Shown piece by piece: positions 8,757 to 32,664 of a DNA stretch of 64,000 nt (its first letter is position 1; every line of letters starts with the position of its first letter). The translations under genes were made by a program, and so were the position numbers. The DNA is taken from NCBI GenBank assembly GCA_016930695.1, contig JAFGGD010000044.1, positions 1 to 64,000 on the forward strand. Reading direction: 5' to 3'. The notes beneath the pieces were generated by a model. That model did not search any database, was not told the DNA's origin, and was given only the letters and a program-made list of their open reading frames with translations. Source of the stretch: Candidatus Eisenbacteria bacterium. GTDB taxonomy: Bacteria > Orphanbacterota > Orphanbacteria > Orphanbacterales > Orphanbacteraceae.

Positions 8757-10250
8757 CTAGCGGCGCCACGAGTTTAAAAATTCTTCCCTTAAATATTCGT
8801 GCATCGCCATTTCCGGATCGTCTGCGACGGACGGCTGGAGAAAGCGGAACGGTTCGTCGCTCTCGAAGGAGAGAATCGAGTGGCAGAGGGTGCAGTCGTA
8901 GGGGATCGTCCCGCCGTAGGCGTCGGTCATGTTCCGGTTGTGGCAGCGAAAGCAACCGCCGCCGTTCCGGTGTCCTCGGTGGTCCGGATAGGGGTTCCAG
9001 GTCACCCGCATGCGTGGATGAATATTGCGGCGATACGATGCCTGCAGGACCTCTACGGTCCGGTCGGTTATTGATGGGTCGGCCGGCTCGAATCCCTCGG
9101 CGCCGCGCCCGTAGAATCCCTCGATCGCGCTGCGGATGCCGGCCATGGCGGCGGCGGAATCGCCGTAGGCACCGGTGAGCGCCGCAAGCGCCTCCCGCTT
9201 GAGCCAGGGGAGCCCGGGGTCGAGGTCTCTCTCGCGGATTAGACGGTCCACCGCATGCTCCGGATCCTCATATACGTGTGTCGCCCGGTTGTGGCAGTCT
9301 ACGCAGTCGAGAATCCTCTCCTCACGGAAGAGCGTGTCCGCCGGGTCGAGGGCGCGGTTTTCGTAGCGCCAGAAATCATCCCCCTTGCGGACCTCCACCC
9401 AGGCCATTCTTTCCCGTGACTCGTCGGCCGCCGCGTAGAGGATTTCGTTTCGCGCGGCCACGTGCCAGTGTATTTCGCCACGGTTCTCGCCTCGTCCCGA
9501 TCCGACCTTGAGAGAGAGCGCGCTGTATCGAGGTGTCGAGAGGCGATCCAGAGCGCGCTTCGGGAAAATCCGGATGCGATCGCCGTAGAATTTGTCCGGC
9601 CAATGGCAGCGTTCGCAAGTCTCGCGGGCGGGGCGGAGTTGCCGCACCGGCGTAGGGATCGGCCGTTCGTACAGGTCGAAAGTGGCGGAGACGACCTGCC
9701 AGAGGCCGTTCAGCTTGGAATCGATCAGTGCCCCCGCCCCTTCGCCGACGTGGCACTCGACGCATTTCACGTGTGCGTGGGGAGAAACCTGGTAGGTGTT
9801 CCACTCCGGGTGCATCACCGAATGACAGGCCGTGCCGCAGAATACGGGTTCGTCCATGAAGTGCAGTATGCGGGCGCCGCCGGCGCCGAGAAAGAGGACG
9901 TTGATCAGGGTGAACACGGCGATGGTGGATACCAATCTGCTTCCGGTTGCGCGTGGCCGGACCATTTCGCCGCTGAATCGCTCGGCGAGGGGGTCCGCGA
10001 CGGAACGGGCCTTCGACGAGCGCAGGTAGATCCGCCAGCCGATCGGGATGAGCGCGAGCCCGAGAAGGAAAAGCGCCGGCAGCGTCATATAGGTGACGAG
10101 CCCCGTGTAGGCGTTGGTCAGCACACCCAGAAGGCGGAGCGCCTCCAGGAAGAGGAAGAGGAGGAAAGCGGAGGTGGTGAGCACCACTCCCGCCGTTCCC
10201 ACCCAATTCGCGGAGAGGCCGATGACGAAGAGACGAAAACGGCGGATCAT
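8757..10250 (-). CDS. NapC/NirT-type membrane multihaem cytochrome c
   Basis: 497 residues with N-terminal helices near residues 15-40, 50-72 and 108-126, then a periplasmic haem domain. Haem-attachment motifs are CGTACH at 138-143 (a CX3CH spacing), CVECH at 163-167, CERCH at 212-216, and CVDCH, CFRCH and CTLCH in the C-terminal half, giving six likely haems. The FCGTACHSVMHPEW block is typical of NapC/NirT-family quinol dehydrogenases. Its ATG lies 13 bp after the upstream HAO-like gene's stop, so the two form an operon. It probably takes electrons from quinol and hands them to that octahaem enzyme, as HaoC-type partners do in epsilon-proteobacteria. Confidence 0.88.
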   Translation of the reverse strand: MIRRFRLFVIGLSANWVGTAGVVLTTSAFLLFLFLEALRLLGVLTNAYTGLVTYMTLPALFLLGLALIPIGWRIYLRSSKARSVADPLAERFSGEMVRPRATGSRLVSTIAVFTLINVLFLGAGGARILHFMDEPVFCGTACHSVMHPEWNTYQVSPHAHVKCVECHVGEGAGALIDSKLNGLWQVVSATFDLYERPIPTPVRQLRPARETCERCHWPDKFYGDRIRIFPKRALDRLSTPRYSALSLKVGSGRGENRGEIHWHVAARNEILYAAADESRERMAWVEVRKGDDFWRYENRALDPADTLFREERILDCVDCHNRATHVYEDPEHAVDRLIRERDLDPGLPWLKREALAALTGAYGDSAAAMAGIRSAIEGFYGRGAEGFEPADPSITDRTVEVLQASYRRNIHPRMRVTWNPYPDHRGHRNGGGCFRCHNRNMTDAYGGTIPYDCTLCHSILSFESDEPFRFLQPSVADDPEMAMHEYLREEFLNSWRR

Positions 10251-31129: not shown

Positions 31130-31204
31130 GCCGCTATCGTCTAGGGGTTAGGACGCCTGGTTCTCAGCCAGGTAACCGGGGTTCGAATCCCCGTAGCGGT
31201 ACCA
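31130..31204 (+). tRNA. tRNA-Glu (anticodon CTC)
   Basis: Complete cloverleaf of 75 bases including encoded CCA. The acceptor GCCGCTA pairs with TAGCGGT (one G-T). The D-arm contains the Glu-typical TCTAGGGGTTAGGAC. The anticodon stem CCTGG/CCAGG has loop TTCTCAG, and the T-arm is CGGGGTTCGAATCCCCG. It is followed by an intrinsic terminator and marks the left edge of a lower-GC accessory patch. Confidence 0.97.
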
Positions 31205-31212
31205 TTTTTGCC

Positions 31213-31246
31213 GGGCGGGGCATAAGCTCCGCCCCTTGTTTATTTT
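31213..31246 (+). terminator. Terminator downstream of tRNA-Glu
   Basis: A nine-bp stem (31213-31221 with 31226-31234, one G-T pair) closes an ATAA loop. It is followed by CTTGTTTATTTT. Confidence 0.85.
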
Positions 31247-31315
31247 CAGCGAGTTCGATTCATCAAACGCACGAGTCGGTTCCTGTCCGCCCTTGTCGGT
31301 TCTCGTTTCATTCCA

Positions 31316-31347
31316 ACAGGTTGGAGGTTCGAATCCCAGCTGGTTCA
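31316..31347 (+). other. tRNA 3'-end remnant
   Basis: This stretch contains GGTTCGAATCCC, identical over 12 bases to the T-arm of the tRNA-Glu 120 bp upstream. It ends in GCTGGTTCA. No matching 5' half is present and the T-stem does not pair, so it is a fragment, probably a scar of an integration at a tRNA gene. It reaches the end of the minus-strand ORF at 31345. Confidence 0.5.
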
Positions 31348-31509
31348 CTCACCTGACGACGCTCTTGCGTTCTCCGCGCATCTGAGCAACAGCATCCCTA
31401 GGTCGAATAACTTGCGCAGTGCCTCGATTGCCTCCTTCTCGGTGATCTCTTCCCCGCGGACCGCGTACTGATTCCGCATCCACTCGACGTCTTCTCGTCG
31501 TATCTTCAT
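31345..31509 (-). CDS. 54-residue hypothetical protein
   Basis: A short frame with GGGAGGATTCA directly before the ATG. It encodes a charged helical peptide: MKIRREDVEWMRNQYAV, then EEITEKEAIEALRKLFDLGMLLLRCA and a short tail. No transmembrane helix. It faces away from the tRNA-like RNA and the 243-residue gene, so the two units diverge from a common intergenic region of about 75 bp. A hairpin (CTCCCGGG/CCCGGGAG, about 31516-31538) lies in that region. I recognise no family. Size and charge would suit a small regulator or antitoxin, which is speculation. Confidence 0.55.
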   Translation of the reverse strand: MKIRREDVEWMRNQYAVRGEEITEKEAIEALRKLFDLGMLLLRCAENARASSGE

Positions 31510-31543
31510 TGAATCCTCCCGGGCTTGGTCCCCGGGAGAATGC

Positions 31544-31571
31544 TTGACGGATTAGACGAGTGTGCTTCAAT
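31544..31571 (+). promoter_or_regulatory. Promoter of the tRNA-like RNA
   Basis: -35 TTGACG at 31544-31549, 16-bp spacer, -10 TTCAAT at 31566-31571. Predicted transcription begins near 31578, at the first base pairs of the structured RNA. Confidence 0.5.
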
Positions 31572-31579
31572 ACCAAACG

Positions 31580-31725
31580 GTATCCGCGATGGCGGAATAG
31601 GTAGACGCAGTGGGCGGGAACTTCGGTGACCGACCGCATATAATGCCATGCGGAGGCGGTGAAGAAACGGAAAGTTGATGAGCGGCACTTCACCATGCAG
31701 GGTGCAAATCCCTGCTCGCGGGTAC
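31580..31725 (+). ncRNA. tRNA-like structured RNA without anticodon or CCA end
   Basis: A tRNA-Leu-like D-arm (GGCGGAATAGGTAGACGC at 31591-31608, with GG at the G18-G19 position) and a T-arm (31697-31715) are held by a closing helix. The T-arm is a six-bp GCAGGG/CCCTGC stem with loop TGCAAAT. The helix has ten base pairs, 31580-31589 with 31716-31725. Where the anticodon and variable arms should be there is an 88-base insert with three hairpins. They are TCGG/CCGA near 31622, CCGCAT/ATGCGG near 31633-31652, and GGTGAAG/CTTCACC near 31657-31694. A ten-pair closing helix, T-loop U55 replaced by G, and no CCA argue against an amino-acid acceptor. It ends 23 bases before the start of the next gene. 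Role unknown. Confidence 0.6.
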
Positions 31726-31748
31726 AGGCTGTCGATAGGAGAGTACCT

Positions 31749-32480
31749 ATGACGAAGGAATCATCTCCACCTACGCCACCGGGCTGGGGGAACGACTCCC
31801 TATCTGAGTACATCGACGTCGCGCGGCAGAACGTTTTCGCAACGTTCCACAACCTGAAACACATTTATGAGCGTCTGAGGGATATCTCTGGGGTCTTCAA
31901 AGAACTCGAAGCCCATCTCAACAATCCTAAAGAATGGTTCGCTGTCTTCTTTGTCGTCAGGGCGGAGTGTTCATATCTGTCGGCCGCCGAGCTAGCGCTG
32001 AGTGGAAAGGCCGTGGAAGCGTTTGTCGTCTTACGAGCCTGTCTTGAGGCAGCCTTGTACGGACTCTATCTGAGCCGGAATCCCGACAAGCAGGAAGTGT
32101 GGCTGCGGCGAGGTGAAGACGAAAAGGCCAGGAAAGCCTGCCGGAATGAGTTCACTTCTGGGCGGCTTCTTAGGTGTCTGAAAGAGGTCGATTCCGTGAC
32201 TCACGATCGAGTCAAAAAGCTCTACGACATTTCCCTCGATTTTGGCGGCCACCCGAATGAGCTGGCGATCACGAGCATGCTCGAATCCGATACGGAGGAC
32301 GGTCAGATCCACTTCAACCAGCTTTGCATGACCGACAACGATTACCGGTTGAGGCACGCCCTTGCGATGACGGCCAGAACAGGCATCTGCGTCCTGGATG
32401 TTTTTCGGAACGTGTTTTCAGAACGCTACGAGATTCTGGACTTGCCAGAGAAGATTGATGCTCTGAGGAAGGACCTATGA
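31749..32480 (+). CDS. Hypothetical protein of the tRNA-Glu accessory patch (possibly DUF5677/HEPN-like)
   Basis: A 243-residue soluble, mostly helical protein with AGGAGAGTACCT before its ATG. The central segment has the helical style of DUF5677-type proteins: RAECSYLSAAELALSGKAVE then FVVLRACLEAALYGLYL. That is a loose resemblance and I do not assign the family. Other features are a charged middle part with RRGEDEKARKACR and a C-terminal helix pair. Base composition is clearly lower in GC than neighbours, suggesting transfer. It is transcribed with the tRNA-like RNA just upstream. Confidence 0.75.
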   Translation: MTKESSPPTPPGWGNDSLSEYIDVARQNVFATFHNLKHIYERLRDISGVFKELEAHLNNPKEWFAVFFVVRAECSYLSAAELALSGKAVEAFVVLRACLEAALYGLYLSRNPDKQEVWLRRGEDEKARKACRNEFTSGRLLRCLKEVDSVTHDRVKKLYDISLDFGGHPNELAITSMLESDTEDGQIHFNQLCMTDNDYRLRHALAMTARTGICVLDVFRNVFSERYEILDLPEKIDALRKDL

Positions 32481-32588
32481 CTCAGTGGCGGGCTTCAGCC
32501 ACTTCTCTCTGACCGGTGGCGAAACCGCCCTCACTAGTGGCCTAAACGTCGCTAGATCAATCCGTTCGCATACTACGACCAGCTCGCC

Positions 32589-32626
32589 CCGGGTTCGAGT
32601 AAGCTCACGTGAGGTGTACCATTTTT
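32589..32626 (+). other. tRNA 3'-end remnant and 11-bp repeat of the tRNA-Glu tail
   Basis: CCCGGGTTCGAG...GTACCATTTTT looks like a degraded T-arm plus CCA end. Its last 11 bases (32616-32626) repeat exactly the end of tRNA-Glu and its first downstream bases (31199-31209). It could be the distal scar of the inserted patch. Confidence 0.4.
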
Positions 32627-32634
32627 ATTCATAG

Positions 32635-32664
32635 ACCCTTCGGCGGCGACGCCGGAGGGTTTAT
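32635..32664 (+). terminator. Terminator at the right end of the accessory patch
   Basis: Arms ACCCTTCGGC (32635-32644) and GCCGGAGGGT (32651-32660), nine of ten paired or wobble, followed by TTATTG. The T-run is weak. The surrounding 32481-32980 region holds no other supported gene. Confidence 0.6.

Follow-up and report, generated by a model that had tools for sequence, protein, structure and literature searches.

A small insertion behind a tRNA-Glu gene carries a member of a phage family of tRNA-Leu-like RNAs that lack the anticodon stem

The window analyzed here, a 64-kb stretch of a Candidatus Eisenbacteria contig, contains behind its tRNA-Glu(CTC) gene a patch of DNA that is most likely a small mobile insertion at the tRNA 3' end, carrying two items of phage or mobile-element cargo that are independent of each other, namely a gene for a 243-residue protein and a structured RNA upstream of it. 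The RNA almost certainly belongs to a family of tRNA-Leu-like RNAs that comprises at least 298 distinct sequences, nearly all of them from phage contigs, and is most likely a phage tRNA mimic that is excised by the tRNA-processing enzymes of the host. Taken as a whole, a patch of mobile cargo that includes an excised, trans-acting phage tRNA mimic is the best explanation of the locus, with a probability of roughly 0.5.

The target of integration is the host tRNA-Glu(CTC) gene (31130-31204, + strand; called by ARAGORN and matched by Rfam RF00005 at 60.5 bits), the tail of which forms the proximal copy of a direct repeat, GTACCATTTTT (31199-31209, +). The distal copy lies at 32616-32626 (+), and the sequence occurs exactly twice in the window and not at all in shuffles. 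The patch is ~1.4 kb in size, extends from the tail of the tRNA to the apparent terminator of the same tRNA, and has a GC content of ~0.54-0.57, as compared to 0.63-0.78 immediately upstream and ~0.60 downstream. Just past the distal repeat is the hairpin CCCTTCGGCGGCGACGCCGGAGGG-TTTATT (32636-32659, +), which is probably the native tRNA-Glu terminator displaced by the insertion; another terminator-like hairpin, directly 3' of the tRNA (31213-31234, +), was probably brought in with the insertion. In two relatives from the same family (loci L517 and L518) the site is empty, such that tRNA-Glu is followed at once by a hairpin terminator, and it is because of these empty sites and the comparable hairpin right behind the distal repeat in the window that the stretch between the repeats is taken to be an insertion. 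An earlier note on this DNA had proposed a lower-GC accessory unit between the two repeats and had suggested comparison with relatives that lack it; the uniqueness of the repeats, the GC values and the two empty loci all bear this out, the insertion having separated the tRNA from its terminator.

The 3' end of tRNA-Glu is a hotspot that has been used repeatedly. A sister genus (L006, G006) has an insertion at the same tRNA that encodes a protein 84% identical to the 243-residue protein, together with a different upstream gene and an internal copy of CCCCGTAGCGGTA, and a third genus (G004) has a decayed copy of the 243-residue gene ~9 kb behind the same tRNA-Glu (L516, ~9350-9670). Two other genera thus have a relative of the orphan protein at this tRNA, intact in one and decayed in the other. 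Among the features by which tRNA-targeting integrative elements are known, the direct repeat of a tRNA 3' end and the empty sites in relatives are both present and an integrase of the element's own is missing, there being, as the note had said, no recognizable integrase or transposase among the ORFs of the patch.

The interior of the patch is arranged divergently, with a 54-residue ORF on one side and the RNA and the 243-residue coding sequence on the other, just as had been described. As to the further tRNA 3'-end fragments of that description, there is a T-arm-like fragment (31320-31345, +), visible in the sequence and weakly similar to several host tRNAs, which is possibly a relic of another attachment event. 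The 54-residue ORF (31345-31509, - strand) is preceded by the Shine-Dalgarno sequence GGAGGA and is an orphan, with no relatives in 59 other genomes, plasmids, Pfam or NCBIfam and only insignificant matches in PADLOC and PHROG. Between the divergent units are a perfect inverted repeat, CTCCCGGG...CCCGGGAG (31516-31538), and, shortly 5' of the RNA, a weak promoter-like sequence, TTGACG-17-TCAATA (31544-31572, +). Of the promoter-led structured RNA that had been claimed, the structured RNA has proved real, whereas the promoter is weak and was not reported by a consensus promoter scan.

The first lead to the nature of this RNA came by eye, from the resemblance of the sequence ahead of the 243-residue gene to a tRNA-Leu with an odd centre. 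Distant blastn searches of phage and plasmid sequences then gave short matches to intergenic DNA, unannotated in each case, in phi3T, in phages of the Lactobacillus group and in a Bacillus plasmid, and direct comparison of these matches revealed that they have in common a matching acceptor stem, a D arm and a T arm whose loop reads UGCAAAU. Viral contigs were scanned with patterns, each scan giving at least 120 matches, and 155 distinct sequences were read from the first lists; in 143 of these 155 the T stem has 6 bp, and in at least 130 the 7-bp acceptor has all of its pairs. Since the original patterns fixed the letters of the D and T arms, scans anchored on only one half were also run. With the T half as sole anchor, the D arm was where predicted in 142 of 156 sequences, and with the D half as sole anchor, 109 of 124 were well formed and 96 had the 6-bp stem and the loop UGCAAAU. 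Several of the T-anchored loci (e.g., L364, L378, L380, L390 and L414) read TGGCGGAATAGAC... and have an altered, apparently shortened D loop with full or nearly full acceptor pairing; this subclass is possibly a second branch of the family.

Members of the family are built on a common shell, consisting of a 7-bp acceptor, U8-G9, a D arm of the tRNA-Leu type, a T stem of 6 bp closed by the loop UGCAAAU and, in many members, a long variable arm, such that the stacked acceptor and T helix has 13 bp and not 12. The shell has clearly been maintained as a structure. Variants of the D stem change on both of its strands (TGGTGG..GACAC, TGACGG..GACGT), and in an alignment of 56 diverse members 98.4% of the shell cells are paired, 11 of the 16 pairs exhibit double changes, and 231 cells carry such changes as compared to 64 in shuffles. 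The covariation score of 0.689 stands against 0.168 for shuffled sequences (0/500) and 0.06-0.12 for slid ones (maximum 0.119). The note had held out, as an alternative, a decayed tRNA in random context, for which the resemblance of the D arm to that of tRNA-Leu might speak, but with acceptor and T-stem pairs all intact and at least 298 related sequences that include compensatory changes, the chance that this is a tRNA gene in decay is close to nil; covariation rules the candidate out, and the RNA belongs, intact, to a conserved and covarying phage family.

The RNA in the window (31583-31723, +) scores 58.5 bits (E 7e-13) with the covariance model R1. Its 5' half consists of the 7-bp acceptor stem (31583-31589 with 31716-31722), UG (31590-31591) and the D arm (31592-31608), GCGGAAUAGGUAGACGC, and has the structure of the family with 7/7 pairs and 19/19 letters. 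In place of the anticodon arm there is a UUCG-capped hairpin with G-A mismatches (31610-31637), and this is followed by a 7-bp variable arm (31658-31664 with 31688-31694) and by a T arm of the family type (31697-31715), GCAGGG-UGCAAAU-CCCUGC, which is preceded by AU. All of these elements are on the + strand, and the discriminator is U. Thermodynamic folding is by itself uninformative for this RNA (z -1.1), and Rfam, even at a loose threshold, gave no tRNA, RF00023 or other match to it or to the tRNA-like RNA of the member loci checked. The RNA ends only ~25 nt ahead of the start codon of the 243-residue gene, so in the window it may have a role in cis, as part of a 5' UTR. It does not lie between genes for a late activator and terminase, which is a positional habit of the family and not part of its structure.

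More broadly, the family has escaped the usual detection tools. ARAGORN called none of the 298 members, Rfam 15 had no family for those checked, and most of the listed phage and plasmid records have no annotated feature at the match. No match was found in 5,426 complete genomes of E. coli, and the covariance model, when run on 385 other genomes, gave listed matches of at most 49.7 bits and of tRNA-Leu length. Searches of the open-access literature, signature sequences included, turned up no description of the family, although absence from that literature or from Rfam 15 is not proof of novelty.

The likeness to class II tRNA-Leu (RF00005) takes in U8, A14, the D arm GGCGGAAUAGGUAGACGC, the U before the T stem, the G19-C56 and U54-A58 letters and the frequently long variable arm. 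The differences are that the family RNAs have no anticodon stem, a T stem of 6 bp (13 bp stacked), a T loop that reads UGCAAAU where tRNA-Leu has UUCRANU, and a centre of 30 to >100 nt. Like tmRNA (RF00023), they combine tRNA-like ends with a centre that is not tRNA, but their D arm is of the Leu type and not the Ala type, and there is no full RF00023 match. The acceptor plus T helix of tRNA-Sec also has 13 bp; in the family RNAs this is made up as 7+6, unlike the 8+5 or 9+4 of tRNA-Sec and the allo-tRNAs, and there is no anticodon. YrlA and the other bacterial Y RNAs are noncoding RNAs with a tRNA-like domain, from which the family RNAs differ in having no Rfam match and in acceptor ends that are open as in tRNA. 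The stable RNAs C and D of phage T4 are likewise phage-borne and non-decoding.

The centre of these RNAs is free in both length and sequence, ranging from ~30 to >100 nt, and related phages with the same flanks and the same shell can have wholly different centres. A 5-bp stem at the anticodon position was seen in 2 of 206 members, as compared to 4.4 in shuffles, and a variable-arm helix ending just 5' of the conserved AU in 100 of 206 (33 when shuffled). In four loci (L214, L160, L262 and L251) an extra T-arm-like hairpin, GGAGTTCGAATCTCC and similar, is found within the variable centre. Constancy of the shell around so changeable an interior, in sequence as in length, is what might be expected if the RNA were a natural tRNA scaffold, a stable shell that shields a hypervariable regulatory RNA such as a phage-specific antisense RNA; the loop letters are, however, more conserved than a scaffold should require, and we consider this reading unlikely.

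The ends of the RNA point more directly to its processing. RNase Z is known to prefer a U after the discriminator, and in the family enrichment of U falls exactly on the first two bases past the discriminator, of which it makes up 53% and 45%, respectively, compared to a background of 25% (p 5e-23 for the first base). A CCA is encoded in only 2 of 282 members and absent from the other 280. Cleavage of CCA-less precursors is a documented activity of RNase Z (PMC7479834), and the enrichment of U together with the lack of an encoded CCA is the pattern expected of CCA-less tRNA precursors that are cut by this enzyme. No promoter is found at a fixed distance 5' of the RNA across members, and intrinsic terminators follow the RNA in 50 of 292 (12 in shuffles). 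In the mechanism that we propose, the RNA would be co-transcribed with phage genes and then excised like a CCA-less tRNA, RNase P cutting at the 5' end and RNase Z just past the discriminator, with CCA being added afterwards; excision as a tRNA-like product is somewhat more likely than not.

Where the flanking sequence is sufficient, the RNA often has a characteristic position in phage genomes. Neighbour profiles built from clusters and labelled by PHROG consist of late transcription activators, an HNH endonuclease and the small and large subunits of terminase. The late activator is upstream of the RNA in 72 cases and downstream in none, the large terminase subunit is downstream in 101 and upstream in 5, and every scored neighbour is on the strand of the RNA. 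This position by the packaging genes applies to 76 of 155 members with enough flank, and the rest are in tRNA arrays or elsewhere; the large lytic Enterococcus phage EFDG1 (L359, 2495-2699), for example, has a long member of 205 nt within its tRNA array. Other structured RNAs have also been noted nearby. In Listeria phage LP-101 (L358, 2782-3237), rli62, rliG (partial) and mcrA RNA directly adjoin the tRNA-like RNA, so that several structured RNAs are crowded together at this junction, and in phi3T (L081, 2861-2926) a DUF3800-VIII RNA is found ~1.2 kb downstream of it.

Placement on one strand between activator and packaging genes, along with the U-rich position past the discriminator, the missing CCA and the hypervariable centre, would also suit a fold that does nothing other than mark sites of cleavage by RNase P and RNase Z, separating early from late phage mRNA and leaving an excised RNA without function. 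The letters of the D loop and T loop are nearly invariant, which goes beyond what either enzyme presumably needs, and the RNA is also present among the arrayed tRNA genes of a large lytic phage; such processing punctuation is accordingly an improbable account of the family. It is still less probable that the RNA is a decoy, soaking up a tRNA-directed enzyme of host anti-phage systems and thereby sparing the tRNAs that the phage needs. Retention of the L-shaped core of a tRNA with loss of the decoding arm, and the presence of another tRNA gene within 1.5 kb in 80 of 298 members, would fit this idea, but the RNA offers anticodon nucleases nothing to cut, no association with a particular defence system was seen, and a late-gene position is atypical of early counter-defence.

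The second piece of cargo is the 243-residue orphan protein (31749-32480, +), which is mostly helical and related to DUF5677. It matches PHROG_36906 (E 6.7e-18), and its match to DUF5677 in Pfam is weak, at 15.2 bits against a cut-off of 27.1, and thus falls short of the gathering score. Its relatives are found on 25 viral contigs and on plasmids, those of rhizobia and Klebsiella among them; one plasmid relative has a gene for a Shedu immune nuclease nearby, and another has HNH and CHAT-domain genes. The residues R96, E100, Y104, W118, F135 and DFG-x-HPN (164-170) are invariant, and the R-x3-E-x3-Y and DFG-x-HPN motifs are common to the protein and its viral relatives. An earlier structure model from 2 sequences was poor (pLDDT 52), and an AlphaFold2 model from 19 sequences is confident and mostly helical (pLDDT 88.5). 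This model has no significant match in the PDB or among viral structures; as regards a HEPN fold, Foldseek returned only weak, non-significant matches (e.g., 4nqf), and the R-x4-6-H motif of HEPN ribonucleases is missing from the invariant residues. Neither NCBIfam nor PADLOC gave anything significant for the window proteins, and searching the PDB by sequence yielded no useful match. From its genomic context, we infer that the protein is accessory or defence-island cargo.

A structured RNA that ends ~25 nt ahead of an orphan gene at a tRNA hotspot had suggested to the author of the note a type III toxin-antitoxin or other RNA-protein defence module. What counts against such a module is that the RNA accompanies the protein nowhere else: it is absent from all tested loci with relatives of the protein, that is, from the same-family relatives, among them the sister-genus copy at the same tRNA, from 10 plasmid loci and from 25 viral contigs, so the expectation that it would be kept upstream of homologues failed. 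Nor do the phage loci of the RNA contain any relative of the protein. The RNA has no tandem repeats, unlike a type III antitoxin array, and the confident helical model of the protein, with no significant structural match, does not have the fold of a ToxN-like endoribonuclease. Relatives of the protein without the RNA rule out a conserved type III pairing, and a module of this general kind is very improbable. With no RNA at the protein relatives searched and no protein relative at the phage loci of the RNA, the layout in the window is, on the present data, a combination of mobile cargo that occurs only here, and the RNA and the protein are very probably independent of each other.

For the phage tRNA mimic that we favour, the product of excision would be a stable, L-shaped, non-decoding RNA that acts in trans, its target being a host protein that recognizes tRNA-Leu by its elbow and variable arm, and in the window it would have travelled together with a gene to which it has no relation. 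That it acts in trans on a host protein that binds tRNA is a tentative proposal, somewhat short of even odds. Leucyl-tRNA synthetase (LeuRS) does not read the anticodon and is for that reason the best single candidate, although it is unlikely that this enzyme in particular is the target. LeuRS depends on A73; the discriminator is A in only ~54% of members and U in the window, and this lack of conservation argues against routine leucylation. Binding to LeuRS without charging, or another partner that binds the elbow, is at least as likely.

What has emerged is a phage RNA family of at least 298 members, some of them in or near tRNA arrays, that both ARAGORN and Rfam 15 have missed. More tentatively still, these RNAs may represent a large undescribed class of anticodon-less phage mimics of tRNA-Leu, in which a constant L-shaped shell encloses a hypervariable centre and which would engage the tRNA machinery of the host, e.g., LeuRS, at the switch to late expression. 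The family has kept the protein-binding parts of tRNA and has dropped the codon-reading one, and this points to a target in the host other than decoding.
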